Below are positions 5,159 to 9,623 of a DNA stretch of 64,000 nt, piece after piece; position 1 is the stretch's first letter; the number at the start of each line of letters is the position of its first letter. A program made the position numbers and the translations under genes. The notes beneath the pieces were generated by a model. That model saw only the letters and a list, made by a program, of their open reading frames with translations, ran no database searches and was not told the DNA's origin. Origin of the DNA: [Synechococcus] sp. NIES-970. Lineage in GTDB: Bacteria > Cyanobacteriota > Cyanobacteriia > Cyanobacteriales > MRBY01. Location of the stretch: assembly GCA_002356215.1 (NCBI GenBank), contig AP017959.1, forward strand, positions 2,496,195 to 2,560,194, written 5' to 3'.

Positions 5159-5860
5159 ATGATTCAACTCCGCCCTTCTACTGAACGGGGTCGCGGCAAA
5201 CTAGATTGGCTCGAAAGCTACTTTAGTTTTTCCTTCTCCCAGTACTATGATCCGGCCCACATGGGTTTTTCGAACCTGCGGGTGATCAATGAAGATTACG
5301 TCGCCCCAGGCAAGGGTTTTGCCACCCATGGCCACCGGGATATGGAGATCGTCACCTATGTCCTGGAAGGCGAACTAGAGCACAAAGACAATATCGGCAA
5401 CGGCTCGATTATTCGCCCAGGGGATGTACAGCGCATGAGTGCTGGTACAGGTATTTTGCACAGTGAATTTAACCCTTCTAATGATCAGCCTGTACACCTG
5501 TTGCAGATTTGGATTACCCCAGATCAGCAGGGGGTCGAGCCGAGCTATGAACAAACCTTTTTCGCCCCAGAGGAAAAACAAGGAAAACTGCGCCTCGTCG
5601 CTTCCCCTGATGGTGAGGCTGGCTCGGTAAAAATCCATCAAAACGCGGCGATCTATGCTTCGATTTTGACGCCCACAGATACTGTGACCCATACCCTCAA
5701 AACGGGTAGAAACGCTTGGGTGCAAATTACCAGAGGAGAGCTAACCTTAAATGGAATGACCCTCGGGGCCGGGGATGGGGCCGCTATTAGCGAGGAAACC
5801 GCACTCACTTTTGCGGGTCAAGCTGCGGAAACGGAATTTTTACTGTTTGATTTGCCCTAG
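5159..5860 (+). CDS. Pirin family bicupin protein
   Basis: 233 residues from the ATG at 5159, which has GGAGG seven to eight bases upstream; an in-frame ATG at 5081 would add an unlikely N-terminal extension. The pirin N-terminal cupin carries all four metal ligands: H57 and H59 in HGHRDME, and H101 and E103 in HSEF. The second cupin covers about 130-230. Pirins bind iron and some have quercetin 2,3-dioxygenase activity, while cyanobacterial pirins are stress induced. A CDGSH iron-sulfur protein follows 44 bases later, probably in the same transcript. Confidence 0.92.
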
Positions 5861-5904
5861 GGCTTATTAACAAATTCACCCACATTCTTTTGAGGAAAAC
5901 ACCC

Positions 5905-6141
5905 ATGACTGAACCAACAATCGCCGCGAAAAAACCGATGGTAATGGACCTGGAGGCCGGAGATTATTTTTGGTGTACCTGTGGCAAATCTGCAGGCCAA
6001 CCTTTTTGTGATGGTAGTCATAAAGGCAGCGATTTTCGTCCCCAGAAATTCACCCTAGAGGAGCCCCAAAAGGTAGCCCTCTGTCTCTGTAAGCACAGCC
6101 AGAATCCGCCCTTCTGCGACGGTTCCCACAGTAAACTGTAG
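5905..6141 (+). CDS. CDGSH iron-sulfur domain protein (two clusters)
   Basis: 78 residues from ATG 5905, preceded by GAGGAAAA. It has two full CDGSH signatures: C24, C26, C35, H39 and C60, C62, C71, H75, each with FCDGSH. Each should bind a 2Fe-2S cluster through three Cys and one His, as in mitoNEET/MiNT proteins. The protein is soluble with no signal peptide or membrane anchor. It follows the pirin gene and ends just before the broken coaE copy, so it marks the left edge of normal sequence before the insertion. Confidence 0.93.
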   Translation: MTEPTIAAKKPMVMDLEAGDYFWCTCGKSAGQPFCDGSHKGSDFRPQKFTLEEPQKVALCLCKHSQNPPFCDGSHSKL

Positions 6142-6168
6142 TCTGCACAGCACAAAGGCGATCGCCTA

Positions 6169-6345
6169 ATGACGACCCAGCGAATTATCGGTCTCACGGG
6201 GGGCATTGCGACGGGAAAAAGTACAGTAACGACTTACTTGACCCAACGCTATCAGCTCCCCATTTTTGATGCCGATATTTTCGTGCGGCAGGCGATCGCC
6301 AAAATGCAAAACAATCATCATATCGATTTTTTTCTTGGAGATTAA
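6169..6345 (+). pseudogene. coaE: Truncated 5' copy of coaE (dephospho-CoA kinase)
   Basis: The ATG at 6169 opens a frame starting MTTQRIIGLTGGIATGKST, the N-terminus and P-loop of dephospho-CoA kinase. It matches the intact coaE at 8781 for 40 codons (6181-6300 versus 8793-8912): 21 of 120 bases differ, mostly at third codon positions, and 5 of 40 residues differ. Similarity ends within a base or two of a HIP1 octamer (6292-6299). The frame then continues for 14 unrelated codons to TAA at 6343. With only the nucleotide-binding start it cannot be a working kinase. It is best read as the leftover of the original gene. Confidence 0.88.
6181..6300 (+). repeat. Left copy of diverged direct repeat (coaE codons 5-44)
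   Basis: 120 bases about 82% identical to 8793-8912. The two copies bracket the OLD nuclease insertion. Differences are mainly synonymous, so these are two alleles of one gene rather than a fresh target-site duplication. Confidence 0.85.
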
Positions 6346-6650
6346 CGATTTACTCCTCAAGCGGGTATTGGCTTGGTAACTGATTCAGGCAATGGAACGA
6401 AAAGGCTTGATCCTGAAAATACCTTAGTAGCACTAAAGAAAATTGAAAAGGCAGCGGCGATCACATTGGTAAGCAACTGCGACTTGAGTTAGATGGTCTT
6501 TAAGTATCTGTAAGTACAGTATCCGTCTTCTAATCATTACTCTGCAGCCAAAGTCTGCGGTAATATTCTGGTAGGTTTGGATTGTTATGCTGTAGGTGCG
6601 GCATGACTCCTAGTTAGACCCGAAAAAGAGTTGGATCATAAGGAAGATAT
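6346..6650. other. Insertion left arm: gene remnant plus upstream region of the OLD gene
   Basis: 305 bases without an intact gene. In the same frame as the coaE remnant, after its TAA, the sequence stays open to TAG at 6490-6492. It encodes a hydrophilic peptide with no ATG start (includes VTDSGNGTKRLDPENT) that looks like a fragment of a real protein I cannot identify. GTTAGAT (6486-6492) and GTTAGAC (6613-6619) match the seven-base integron core GTTRRRY, but no complete attC site is visible. AAGGAAG about eight bases before 6651 is a good ribosome-binding site for the nuclease. Confidence 0.5.
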
Positions 6651-8438
6651 ATGAAGCTCAAGAAACTTACTATTCAGAATTTTCGAGCCTACCAGGCGGA
6701 AACGGAAATATCCTTCGGCAATATAACAGGTCTGATCGGCAGAAATGATGTTGGAAAAACATCAATACTCGATGCGCTAGGAATATTCTTTGGCCATAAG
6801 CTATGTAAATATGAAGCTAGGGATAAATGTGTTTATGCCGAAGAAAATGAGGATGTAATTATCACCTGTGAGTTTGAGGAACTGCCACAAGAAATAATCC
6901 TGGATGCCACATCTGTAACGAGCTTAGAGCGAGAGTATTTGTTAACCGATCAGAGAACGCTTTCGTTATCGAAAGTATTCAAGAAAGGGAAAGGATCTGG
7001 AGTCTACATGGCTAACTGTATCCATCCTAGCGCGACGAATGCTAAGGGAATTCTTTTAAAAAGGAACGATGAATTGAAATCTATTGCTCAGTCGCTAGGA
7101 ATCGCAGCGGAAGATAATAGATCCAATGTAAGCTTGCGAGAAGCTATCTATAGTGCTGTTGGTGATCTAAAACTTAAAGATCAATTTGTAGCCTTATCAA
7201 AAGAAGATGGAAAAGCAATTTTAGATCAAATTCAAAATCACTTGCCGCACTTTGCATTATTTAGAGCAGATAGACCTAGCACTGATGAAGAAGCCGAAGT
7301 ACAAGACCCAATGAAAGTGGCAATATCTCAAGCAATTGAGGATATATCCCCACAACTAGAAGATATTAAAGATCAAGTTAAACAAAAAGCTCTTGCGGTC
7401 GCAAATAACACACTGTCGCATTTGGCTGATTTAGACCCTGAATTCGCTATGTCACTTACTCCGAACTTTAAGGTAGATCCAAAATGGGAAGGCATTTTTA
7501 AGTTGTCATTATCTGGTGACGATGATATTCCTATAAACAAAAGAGGTAGCGGAGTAAGACGATTGGTTCTCATCAGCTTTTTCAAAGCGGAGGCGGAACG
7601 CATTAAGCGAGAATATCAGGAGCGAGGTGTAATCTACGCTATTGAGGAGCCCGAAACATCCCAACATCCAGATAAGCAAAAGCTGCTCGTTGATGCCTTT
7701 TCTGAAATGGCTGATAAAGATGGATGCCAAATAGTTATTACCACTCATGTTCCGGCACTCGCTGAGCAATTACCTATCAAATCCATAAGGCATATCTTCA
7801 AGAATCAAGAAGGTGATATTAAGGTCAACTCTAATCAAGATGATGTATTTAAGCTTGTAGCTAAAGATTTGGGTGTTCTTCCTGATAGCAGAGCTCAGGT
7901 GATAGTTTGCGTTGAAGGGCCAAATGACATCGCGTTCTTTAAAAATCTATCGGCACTTTTACTCAATGAAGGCCTTATGGCCCCTGACTTTGAAAATGAT
8001 CCACGAATAGTATTGCTTCCCTTGGGTGGCGACACTCTTAGGGATTGGGTTAATGGCCACTATCTTAAAAATATAGGCAAGCCAGAAGTACATATTTATG
8101 ATCGGGATGATCAGAACCCCCCAAAATATAAAGAAACATGTGATGCAGTAAAGACTAGAGGCGATGGTTCCATAGCATTTATTACTTCCAAGCGGGAAGC
8201 CGAGAACTATCTCCATCCAGATGCGATTCAAGAAGCCCTAGGGATAAGTGTTACCTATACAGATGACTGTGATGTTCCAGCGATAGTAGGTGCTGCGTTA
8301 GGAGTCAATGATAGAACTGCAAAGAGAAAACTAAATCGAGTTGCAGCAAAAAAAATGACTAAAGAAAGACTTGATGAAAGAGATCCAAATGGTGAAATTC
8401 TAGGCTGGTTTGATGAAATATTGCAGCGATGCAGCTAG
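6651..8438 (+). CDS. OLD-family endonuclease (AAA ATPase plus Toprim), putative phage defence
   Basis: 595 residues. The N-terminus is an ABC/AAA-type ATPase: Walker A GRNDVGKTS (30-38), a signature-like RGSGVRRL near 290-300, Walker B VIYAIEEPE (327-335) and switch ITTHVP. The C-terminal half is a Toprim nuclease: E422 in CVEGPNDIAFF and D484/D486 in HIYDRDDQ, then SKREAENYL. This order is that of overcoming-lysogenization-defect nucleases, which include GajA of the Gabija system. No UvrD/GajB helicase follows. A 98-residue-class gene starts 41 bases downstream. The gene is AT-richer than its neighbours and lies between two coaE copies, so it was probably acquired. Anti-phage function is inferred from the family. 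Confidence 0.88.
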   Translation: MKLKKLTIQNFRAYQAETEISFGNITGLIGRNDVGKTSILDALGIFFGHKLCKYEARDKCVYAEENEDVIITCEFEELPQEIILDATSVTSLEREYLLTDQRTLSLSKVFKKGKGSGVYMANCIHPSATNAKGILLKRNDELKSIAQSLGIAAEDNRSNVSLREAIYSAVGDLKLKDQFVALSKEDGKAILDQIQNHLPHFALFRADRPSTDEEAEVQDPMKVAISQAIEDISPQLEDIKDQVKQKALAVANNTLSHLADLDPEFAMSLTPNFKVDPKWEGIFKLSLSGDDDIPINKRGSGVRRLVLISFFKAEAERIKREYQERGVIYAIEEPETSQHPDKQKLLVDAFSEMADKDGCQIVITTHVPALAEQLPIKSIRHIFKNQEGDIKVNSNQDDVFKLVAKDLGVLPDSRAQVIVCVEGPNDIAFFKNLSALLLNEGLMAPDFENDPRIVLLPLGGDTLRDWVNGHYLKNIGKPEVHIYDRDDQNPPKYKETCDAVKTRGDGSIAFITSKREAENYLHPDAIQEALGISVTYTDDCDVPAIVGAALGVNDRTAKRKLNRVAAKKMTKERLDERDPNGEILGWFDEILQRCS

Positions 8439-8441
8439 GGC

Positions 8442-8464
8442 TAACGCCGTGCTCTGCGGCGTTA
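8442..8464. repeat. Perfect inverted repeat after the OLD gene, attC-like ends
   Basis: TAACGCCG (8442-8449) and CGGCGTTA (8457-8464) form a perfect 8-bp stem with a 7-base loop, just after the OLD stop codon. The outer TAAC/GTTA bases are those of an integron attC site, but 23 bases is far below the usual attC length. It may be a collapsed attC or simply a transcript hairpin. Confidence 0.5.
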
Positions 8465-8479
8465 TGGTATTGACAAAAA

Positions 8480-8779
8480 ATGAAAATATCTGAAATATTC
8501 GAAAACGAACCTACGCAATGGGGATTGCGGGGTGATCGATATCTTTGGTGTGAGTTGAAGGAAAGACTAAATAACGTTGATATGCCAGACACACCCGAAC
8601 AACTCAAAAGCATCATCGAAAAGGAATACGAAGTAGCGACAGGTCACCCCATCAATCATAGAGAACATTTCACCGTCGAAAGATTTATGCATGGCGGCAT
8701 GTCTAACGGCAGGATAAGCCCTGAATTTTGGCATGACTGCGAAATTCCACTGTTGGTGAAACGTCATGTCGCGCCATAA
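8480..8779 (+). CDS. Small conserved protein of accessory/cassette type
   Basis: 99 residues beginning MKISEIFENEPTQWGLRGD and ending with a conserved-looking block ERFMHGGMSNGRISPEFWHD. From memory, similar small proteins occur across bacteria in mobile regions and integron cassettes without a known function; I cannot check this here. It has no signal peptide or membrane segment. It follows the OLD gene by 41 bases and could be its partner or an unrelated passenger. Its stop (8777-8779) lies one base before the GTG start of coaE, so it sits right on the insertion's right junction. Confidence 0.7.
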   Translation: MKISEIFENEPTQWGLRGDRYLWCELKERLNNVDMPDTPEQLKSIIEKEYEVATGHPINHREHFTVERFMHGGMSNGRISPEFWHDCEIPLLVKRHVAP

Positions 8780-8780
8780 A

Positions 8781-9380
8781 GTGACAAAACCAAGAATCAT
8801 TGGTCTGACCGGGGGCATCGCGACGGGAAAAAGTACCGTGACGACTTACCTGGCCCAGCGCTACCAGCTCCCCATTCTTGATGCAGATATTTATGCTCGT
8901 GAGGCGATCGCACCACCTTCCTTGATCTTGGATCACATTTTTGAGCGTTACGGTGAGGGCATCAAAAATGCCGATGGTTCCCTCAACCGTCAGGCTTTAG
9001 GGGACATTGTCTTTAACGATCCTGACGAAAAACAGTGGCTCGAAACGCAAATTCATCCCTATGTCCGCCAACGCTTCCAGGACGCTTGCGCCCAAGAGCT
9101 CCAGGCCGCACCGATTATTATTTGCGCGATTCCTTTACTGTTTGAGGCTCGTTTAACGGACTTTGTTTCAGAAATTTGGGTCGTCACCTGCCAACCGGAA
9201 CAACAATTAGCACGCCTGCAACAACGTAACGCCTTGACCCTCGCCCAAGCCCAGGCCCGAATCGCCAGTCAAATGCCCTTAGCCGAAAAAGTGGCCCGGG
9301 CCGATGTGGTGCTTGATAATTCTTTGGATCTCGCAACACTCCATCACCAAGTTGATCTGGCCCTGGGGGGGAATTGCTAG
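8781..9380 (+). CDS. coaE: Dephospho-CoA kinase
   Basis: 199 residues from the GTG at 8781. That start gives MTKPRIIGLTGG, which aligns residue for residue with the MTTQRIIGLTGG of the left remnant; an ATG at 8766 would overlap the upstream gene and add five unmatched residues. The P-loop is GGIATGKS (11-18), followed by DADIYAR, and the lid/CoA region has LLFEARL. The enzyme phosphorylates dephospho-CoA, the last step of CoA synthesis, and is normally essential. The first 44 codons differ from the left remnant at 21 of 120 bases, so this copy probably came in with the insertion. Confidence 0.93.
   Translation: MTKPRIIGLTGGIATGKSTVTTYLAQRYQLPILDADIYAREAIAPPSLILDHIFERYGEGIKNADGSLNRQALGDIVFNDPDEKQWLETQIHPYVRQRFQDACAQELQAAPIIICAIPLLFEARLTDFVSEIWVVTCQPEQQLARLQQRNALTLAQAQARIASQMPLAEKVARADVVLDNSLDLATLHHQVDLALGGNC
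8793..8912 (+). repeat. Right copy of diverged direct repeat (coaE codons 5-44)
   Basis: Partner of 6181-6300; 99 of 120 bases identical. The match stops at the end of a HIP1 octamer (8904-8911), after which this copy continues as normal coaE and the left one does not. Confidence 0.85.
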
Positions 9381-9413
9381 AATACCCAGTGAATCAGTAT
9401 TAAGGTAGCGCCG

Positions 9414-9623
9414 ATGACGATTTGGGTAAATGAACAAATTGATCCGACTGGCATTCTCCAAGCTTGCATCGCCTGTAAAAACGAAGCAGTCGCAAAGGAC
9501 TGCCATGAGCAATGGAAACAAAAGCTCGCCATGGACAAGACGACCATCGGTTGGGAAGCGAAGATCCGCACCGTTGATTCTTGGGATGATGTGCCTGTGA
9601 ATGCGCTCAAGATTAGCTTTTAG
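9414..9623 (+). CDS. Small conserved hypothetical protein
   Basis: 69 residues, soluble, no signal peptide. It has three cysteines in CIACKNEAVAKDC and a C-terminal half rich in strand-forming residues (WEAKIRTVDSWDDVPVNALKI). It starts 33 bases after coaE on the same strand and could be co-transcribed. The composition matches neighbouring core genes, so I take it as a real small gene. No function can be assigned. Confidence 0.6.
   Translation: MTIWVNEQIDPTGILQACIACKNEAVAKDCHEQWKQKLAMDKTTIGWEAKIRTVDSWDDVPVNALKISF

Follow-up and report, generated by a model that had tools for sequence, protein, structure and literature searches.

The 64,000-nucleotide (nt) stretch of [Synechococcus] sp. NIES-970 analysed here (the window) carries a putative defence gene inserted between two copies of the 5ʹ end of coaE, in an arrangement that we interpret as a probable integron cassette site lacking an integrase of its own. 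The window is part of a 3.12-Mb cyanobacterial genome (G000), and the locus was compared across six genomes of the genus (G000-G005). Two of these, Picosynechococcus sp. PCC 7117 (G003) and a second close relative (G002), share with NIES-970 the gene order pirin, CDGSH, coaE 5ʹ fragment, noncoding stretch, cargo, 99-amino acid (aa) gene and full coaE (Table 1). The noncoding stretch consists in each case of a decayed higA followed by a 70-nt block. Because the same arrangement is found in both relatives, it is not an assembly accident of the NIES-970 genome. A second, partial coaE match is present in these three of the six genomes, and the remaining three carry a single coaE, located far from CDGSH in G001 and on a separate contig from it in G004 and G005.

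Table 1. Features of the coaE locus of NIES-970, numbered by position in the window.
Feature	Position	Strand	Basis or remark
coaE 5ʹ fragment (left copy)	6169..6303	+	homology to the first 44 codons of full coaE
HIP1 octamer ending the left coaE copy	6292..6299	.	G002 and G003 have their junction at this HIP1 or close to it
Decayed higA (XRE antitoxin) remnant	6304..6510	+	tblastn of intact G003 HigA-like protein matches 6338-6462
attI-like block, putative cut between 6613 and 6614 (CCTAG^TTAG)	6544..6613	+	conserved before different cargo; position weight matrix
Variable gene cassette, 1848 nt	6614..8461	+	conserved flanks; no homology to G002/G003 cargo
AAA_15 / OLD-like ATPase, 595 aa	6651..8438	+	profile matches; presumed OLD-type nuclease
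Short attC-like hairpin (R''-like GGCTAAC ... GTTATGG)	8439..8467	+	R''/R' match, folding
Fixed module with 99-aa gene	8462..8780	+	possibly a second cassette truncated at an R'' box (CCATAA|A); R''-like box 6/7
Promoter-like site TTGACA-18-AATATT in fixed part	8470..8499	+	consensus match only
99-aa protein, conserved in three strains	8480..8779	+	open reading frame and comparison of relatives
Full coaE	8781..9380	+	start GTG 8781, or ATG 8766
HIP1 octamer in full coaE	8904..8911	.	putative right-hand limit of imported segment

An initial annotation of this DNA had noticed that roughly the first 40 codons of coaE are doubled, that the left copy stops at an octamer of the highly iterated palindrome HIP1, and that the right copy runs on as full coaE. 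All three points are borne out. The doubled part comprises about 44 codons (6169-6303 and 8781-8915), and the right copy has its own HIP1 inside at 8904-8911 and extends to 9380. The initial count of 21 differences in 120 bases, which applies to codons 5-44, is confirmed; over codons 1-44 there are 27 in 132. The description of these differences as mostly silent holds only just, since 15 of the 27 lie in codons that are synonymous and 12 in codons that are not. Positions within 2 nt of a HIP1 edge make up ~1.5% of the window, and a coaE junction at HIP1 is therefore mildly unlikely by chance. The insert is indeed AT-richer than its surroundings, with a GC content of 0.406 for the cassette versus 0.489 for the window. 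Alignment of the coaE copies to those of relatives gave a mixed answer. Every 5ʹ copy in the three strains has a same-side copy as its nearest relative, but the identities overlap (112-118 of 134-135 for left-left pairs, 105-116 for left-right pairs) and the tree of 5ʹ copies, with supports of 39-94, is too weak to stand alone.

As the initial annotation had anticipated, the site holds different cargo in different strains. The three cargoes are unrelated and have only chance-like matches of 11-20 nt in common. That of NIES-970 encodes an AAA_15 ATPase whose matches are to proteins of the AriA, GajA and OLD types and reach 1.5e-58 for the AriA (AAA_15) model and 7.1e-27 for the top GajA model (among the best 25 of 137 matches). 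The ATPase portion of this 595-aa protein matches solved OLD and GajA chains, and two homologues at 36.6% identity, among the matches listed, are annotated as TOPRIM-domain proteins; no TOPRIM model matched the 595-aa protein itself at E 0.001. Among the best 25 of 365 plasmid matches, the nearest relative is a Vibrio maritimus plasmid protein (57%), which adjoins a type I restriction-modification (R-M) region where no integron is annotated. The cargo of G002 comprises a C5 DNA methylase (PF00145, 1.1e-67) and a Bpu10I-type endonuclease (RE_Bpu10I, 8.3e-30) and is a predicted type II R-M pair, the two enzymes presumably acting on a common target sequence. That of PCC 7117 encodes a 253-aa protein with no Pfam or NCBIfam match and a weak PADLOC match (homing endonuclease, E 0.003). 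Two of the three cargoes (NIES-970 and G002) are thus of defence type, with a predicted function in defence.

Two known defence systems were considered for the NIES-970 cargo and rejected. Gabija (GajAB) combines a GajA-type ATPase-nuclease with a neighbouring GajB helicase gene, and the next gene here, which encodes the 99-aa protein, has no Pfam, PADLOC or NCBIfam match. PARIS (AriAB) pairs the AriA ATPase with AriB, and the cassette contains no second sizeable plus-strand open reading frame (small overlapping frames on the minus strand lay outside the scan).

Cassette-like boundaries, the attI-like block and the integrase

In all three genomes, the cargo starts directly after the CTAG of CTAG^TTAG and ends just before TTAT(G/A)GT(A/C)YTGACA. 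The first bases of the cargoes (GTTAGAC, GTTAGCT and GTTAGCA) have complementary boxes (GGCTAAC, AGCTAAC and TGCTAAC) that sit 23, 49 and 53 nt before the cargo end. Complementarity extends over 6/7, 7/7 and 7/7 bases and was equalled in 72, 42 and 38 of 2000 shuffles, respectively, which corresponds to a joint chance of ~1.4e-5 if the three cases are independent. The boxes of integron cassettes follow the consensus RYYYAAC for R'' and GTTRRRY for R'. Judged by sequence, the complementarity between cargo start and cargo end is the R''/R' relation of integron cassettes, and the cargo boundaries, which the initial annotation had missed, are of the integron-cassette type. Different cassettes occupy one site across the three strains, as is characteristic of integrons. 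When the cassette ends are rejoined, shuffled sequences fold as well on the bottom strand in only 1/300 cases for NIES-970 and 5/300 for PCC 7117.

The 70-nt block that precedes the cassette resembles the attI sites of cyanobacterial integrons. A position weight matrix was built from 10 intI-adjacent cyanobacterial sites; a filter found a site in 6/10 intI loci, and four further sites were added by inspection. G188 was dropped because no site was found in it, G264 was included with a spacing one base longer, and the remaining intI loci from the survey of 386 cyanobacterial genomes did not enter the matrix. For two of the sites the adjacent integrase is decayed (that of G359 and one of the two in NIES-970). 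With this matrix, the coaE site ranks first in the G002 and PCC 7117 loci (14-15 kb each) and third in the window, where 127,968 positions were scored. The block recurs on plasmids of PCC 7117, PCC 7002 (pAQ7), PCC 73109 and PCC 8807. At a site in genome G007 (C1:3966663), the upstream half of the block is joined to a typical cyanobacterial attI core with the end TCTAATACATAGTTAG, and the score reaches 21.8. We favour the interpretation of the block as an attI site with predicted activity.

The surroundings of these other copies vary. On pAQ7 and on PCC 7117 plasmid unnamed5, the block lies beside HIP1 and precedes a DUF4386 gene (L092, L095 ~8001-8078); immediately upstream, PCC 7002 has an annotated GFA gene, which is apparently truncated in PCC 7117. 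By eye, the neighbours of the G007 site are a transposase gene and a gene for a small membrane protein, and tblastn with the NIES-970 integrase gave no match at that locus.

An intact integron integrase is encoded by NIES-970 at C1:531208, downstream of argH (TIGR02249, 470 bits, cut-off 265). Its motifs contain the usual catalytic residues, and the gene has its own attI. In its array, an exact 7-base R'' match occurs 2838 nt on and is followed by a 90-nt attC-like stretch; in the array of the decayed intI, an R'' match occurs 1391 nt on. Both matches are weak because such a 7-mer is expected ~0.37 times per 6 kb. Relatives of the integrase at E <= 1e-60 are found in 24/386 cyanobacterial genomes (28 matches, 7 with an internal stop). 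The distance from coaE to intI is 1.97 Mb in contig coordinates, or ~0.87 Mb by the shorter way if the 2.84-Mb contig is circular, and no intI adjoins the cassette: tblastn gave no match in the window at E 1.

Synonymous divergence across the module

Neighbouring genes are ~73-77% identical between the strains, and their synonymous divergence (dS) is high throughout. Between NIES-970 and G002, dS is 1.36 for coaE from codon 45 to the end, 1.39 for pirin, 1.51 for LysR and saturated for CDGSH. The corresponding values between NIES-970 and PCC 7117 are 1.33 for coaE from codon 45, 1.28 for pirin, 0.90 for LysR and 1.75 for a VOC gene, with CDGSH again saturated. Inside the module, dS falls to 0.17 (G002) and 0.19 (PCC 7117) for the 99-aa gene and to 0.46 in both comparisons for codons 1-44 of the full coaE. 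The left copy was compared with that of G002, the frameshifted left copy of PCC 7117 being left out of the codon tests; here dS is 0.23 for codons 11-44 and 2.06 for codons 1-10. The low dS inside, set against 0.9 to saturation in the flanks, shows that the module came into the lineage horizontally. The comparison agrees with the initial proposal of foreign DNA from a related lineage and of two coaE alleles.

The proportion of differing synonymous sites (pS) gives the same picture. Codons 45 to the end of coaE have a pS of 0.62-0.63 relative to G002 and PCC 7117, and pirin, CDGSH and LysR range from 0.52 to 0.85. In the left copies of NIES-970 and G002, which share a 27-nt identical run in the P-loop segment, pS is 0.20 for codons 11-44 (5.0/24.8 sites) and 0.70 for codons 1-10 (5.5/7.8 sites only). 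Fisher tests on rounded counts separate the 99-aa gene from coaE codons 45 to the end (p = 2e-9), left-copy codons 11-44 from CDGSH (p = 7e-7) and coaE codons 1-44 from codons 45 to the end (p = 0.0035). A left changepoint between NIES-970 and G002, with CDGSH included, falls at left-copy codons 3-12 (best 9). The right changepoint, with the 99-aa gene included, falls at coaE codons 5-43 for G002 (best 9) and -2 to 43 for PCC 7117 (best 6). Because codons 45 to the end are as diverged as the resident neighbours, only the start of coaE appears to be foreign and the remainder resident. The full gene is predicted to be foreign from its start to somewhere in codons 5-43, and resident beyond. On the left side, codons 1-10 look resident and codons 11-44 look as if they arrived with the module.

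A proposed coaE-bounded cassette site and rival explanations

We propose that the locus is an integrase-less integron cassette site within a module that is bounded by coaE repeats and spread by homologous recombination, and we put the probability of this reading at about 0.68. It is built on four observations: the cargo at one site differs between three genomes, its boundaries are cassette-like, an intact intI is present, and dS is low within a saturated backbone. An integron piece made up of the decayed higA, the attI-like block, the cassette and the 99-aa gene (possibly a second, truncated cassette) would lie between the two coaE 5ʹ copies. Cassettes with different genes would be inserted at TAG^TTAG by an integrase acting in trans. 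The module would have come into the NIES-970 lineage from a relative like G002 or PCC 7117 by homologous recombination, perhaps through natural transformation, the left crossover falling within the first 12 or so codons of the left coaE copy and the right one within the right copy, either at HIP1 or upstream of it. In a relative whose site is unoccupied, the repeats would find their match in the single coaE and so provide the module with two homology arms. With two such arms, recombination would be possible despite neighbours of 73-77% identity, and coaE would always be restored; that the incoming copy restores an essential gene had already been suggested by the initial annotation, and this part of its scheme is retained. 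HIP1 might also have had a role in the original duplication of coaE.

Several findings weigh against this proposal. The occupied site is known from three genomes only, and the six genomes of the genus yielded no CDGSH-coaE interval that is empty. An integrase above the cut-off occurs in 1/6 of these genomes, with none in the other five. The attI score of the block is only 10.3-13.7, compared with 7.7-22.3 for the 10 sites when left out singly; the top-scoring site in the window, at 11.0, is apparently a chance match, and the copy of the block on the PCC 7117 plasmid scores 3.0. The plasmid cassettes yielded no R'' box, and the only R'' candidates in G007 are one-mismatch boxes >3 kb away. The attC-like sites are short or degraded, and that of G002 folds no better than shuffled sequences (as good or better in 56/300; in another run, 177/200). 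A strict attC finder reported no site at the coaE loci or at the NIES-970 intI locus; among the loci scanned (coaE loci, L036, L038, L079-L088), it found sites in L079, L084 (doubtful), L085 and L086 only. Taken alone, coaE is too short and yields a weak changepoint (92 and 268 of 2000 permutations). Finally, pS for coaE codons 1-44 is 0.37 between G002 and PCC 7117 and 0.34 between NIES-970 and either, and this equal distance among all three strains suggests conversion between left and right copies.

The best-surviving alternative, which we nevertheless consider unlikely, is that a lost higBA cassette left the 70-nt block behind as its attC or 3ʹ end, and that the locus is an integrase-less attC cluster (CALIN) in which insertion took place between attC sites. 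A decayed higA lies directly upstream of the block, with a start region that is alike by eye in the compared sequences, and no higB was recognized by reading between 6303 and 6613. Intact higA occurs elsewhere in PCC 7117 and also on pAQ5; on this plasmid, the first 25 nt of the block come after higBA. Taken together, the upstream higA and the pAQ5 arrangement suggest that the block may derive from a higBA cassette end. However, the block has no higA directly upstream on pAQ7, on PCC 7117 unnamed5 or in G007, and its end matches intI-adjacent attI sites.

It is less probable still that the locus is a plain hotspot, where whole cargo segments are exchanged by homologous recombination in conserved flanks and no integron is involved. 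The module did move, the crossovers probably fell in coaE, and the attC-like sites are so degraded that the strict finder misses them, all of which this explanation accommodates. It leaves unexplained why 3/3 cargoes begin at the same base and show R''/R' complementarity, and it sits poorly with the attI-like left side and with the presence of an integron integrase in the genome.

The initial annotation favoured a simpler course of events, in which the resident gene, except for its start, gave way to a single incoming segment of cargo plus whole coaE. The two alleles and the truncation of the left copy at HIP1 fit such a replacement. So do the N-termini: the left copy starts MTTQR, like two of the three single coaE genes of the more distant relatives (TTQR in G004 and TPQR in G001, as opposed to MTQG in G005), and the right copy starts (V)TKPR, like those of G002 and PCC 7117. 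Yet codons 45 to the end of coaE are as diverged as the flanking residents, which argues against replacement by a whole foreign gene, and codons 11-44 of the left copy are module-like, near those of the G002 left copy, with only codons 1-10 looking like a resident leftover. This explanation is largely refuted and has a very small probability. Least probable of all is vertical inheritance, with the coaE 5ʹ end duplicated in place at the time of insertion and a module that has evolved slowly since: the same-side nearest copies indicate a duplication probably older than the strain split or the transfer, but neither a decayed pseudogene nor the synonymous positions in the 99-aa gene would be likely to stay so alike beside near-saturated neighbours.

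Known integron systems and the argH parallel

The coaE-bounded cassette site shares features with several described systems. Sedentary chromosomal integrons and CALINs (PMC9024848, PMC12444791) are alike in having R''/R' cassettes at G^TTRRRY, arrays away from an integrase, conserved neighbours and defence cassettes. The coaE site differs in that it has an attI-like site with a single variable cassette but without an integrase in cis, that an essential gene brackets it with partial copies, and that its attC sites are degraded. By default, a CALIN has at least two attC sites without an integrase (PMC9024848); the coaE locus was rejected as a member because it falls below this number, with one short attC-like site and a truncated R''-like box, and because the strict finder detects none. 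Insertions by IntI at attG are mentioned (PMC12444791, PMC12901181) and likewise place a cassette away from the integrase. In contrast to attG, the coaE site has a conserved 70-nt block that occurs at several loci, is related to intI-adjacent attI and receives different cargo.

Natural transformation as a means of transferring integrons and cassettes (PMC3410848) is similar in that integron parts move between species as free DNA, whereas the homology that would recombine in the coaE module consists of the duplicated coaE 5ʹ ends that the module itself carries. HIP1-linked recombination in Synechococcus PCC 7002 is attributed by PMC4390886 to Akiyama 1998; it concerns the same genus group and likewise has junctions at GGCGATCGCC. 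The cited title speaks of plasmids, whereas the role of HIP1 proposed here is based on gene-end copies at coaE and argH. Defence genes within integrons are known (PMC12444791, citing 2025 papers about phage defence and integrons), and integrase genes have been reported in cyanobacteria (PMC2426708), with few mentions in the literature searched. No paper joining Picosynechococcus and integron was found in the literature search, and a search on coaE as a defence insertion hotspot returned nothing related, judged by titles and abstract openings. On these sources, cassettes away from integrases, attG insertions and defence cassettes are known, and the coaE-bracketed integrase-less site appears to be new. 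Integrons themselves have been described as not mobile (PMC12444791). A site with its own essential-gene arms would explain how sedentary integron parts can cross species in naturally transformable bacteria, and the coaE site would be a concrete route for swapping defence genes at a fixed chromosomal address. The integron parts here occur in three related marine cyanobacteria, in the genus of the widely used laboratory strain PCC 7002, where the idea is directly testable.

A second locus resembles coaE in its gene-end copies. Copies of the last ~100 nt of argH, including the gene's own end and with <=40 candidates scored per genome, number five in NIES-970, five in G002, two in G005 and one each in G001, PCC 7117 and G004. 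We tentatively extend the proposal to both loci, at odds that are somewhat worse than even. Picosynechococcus integron pieces might be portable modules that use a HIP1-ended piece of an essential gene (coaE 5ʹ, argH 3ʹ) as a homology arm; recombination would always restore the host gene, and a distant integrase would refill the site with defence cassettes. If true, this would be integron movement needing neither a transposon nor a plasmid.

The argH loci were also inspected directly. At C1:527941-535630 of NIES-970, 4/5 of the argH-end copies start at a HIP1 octamer. The five copies bracket the intact integrase, a second, decayed integrase and the attI belonging to it, and two genes of cassette-like appearance, identified by eye as glyoxalase-like and GNAT. 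The argH locus of G002 (C1, L112 4991-8811) contains that genome's five copies and an attI-like site near L112:6562 on the minus strand; tblastn at E 1e-3 detected no integrase there.

The remaining observations concern expression signals and the 99-aa gene. A Rfam scan of 5800-9500 returned 0 families, and a consensus scan found no Pc-like promoter near 6613 on the plus strand. Downstream, the sole 10-of-12 match is the promoter-like site at 8470-8499, which could serve coaE; the region has five such sites, where shuffled sequences average 6.5. The 99-aa reading frame (8480-8779) overlaps the ATG-started reading of coaE. The gene is present in 3/6 genomes of the genus and 3/291 of the order, all in this genus; a scan of genome contigs with the 99-aa alignment and very specific peptide patterns returned PCC 7117 only. 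Its identity as a known cassette gene elsewhere was not confirmed, as the 2/8 plasmid contexts inspected carry no integron annotation. Plasmid relatives of the protein were found in eight records at <=44.1% identity, including plasmids of Pseudomonas, Curtobacterium, Rhodococcus and others, and once inside an annotated ankyrin-repeat protein.

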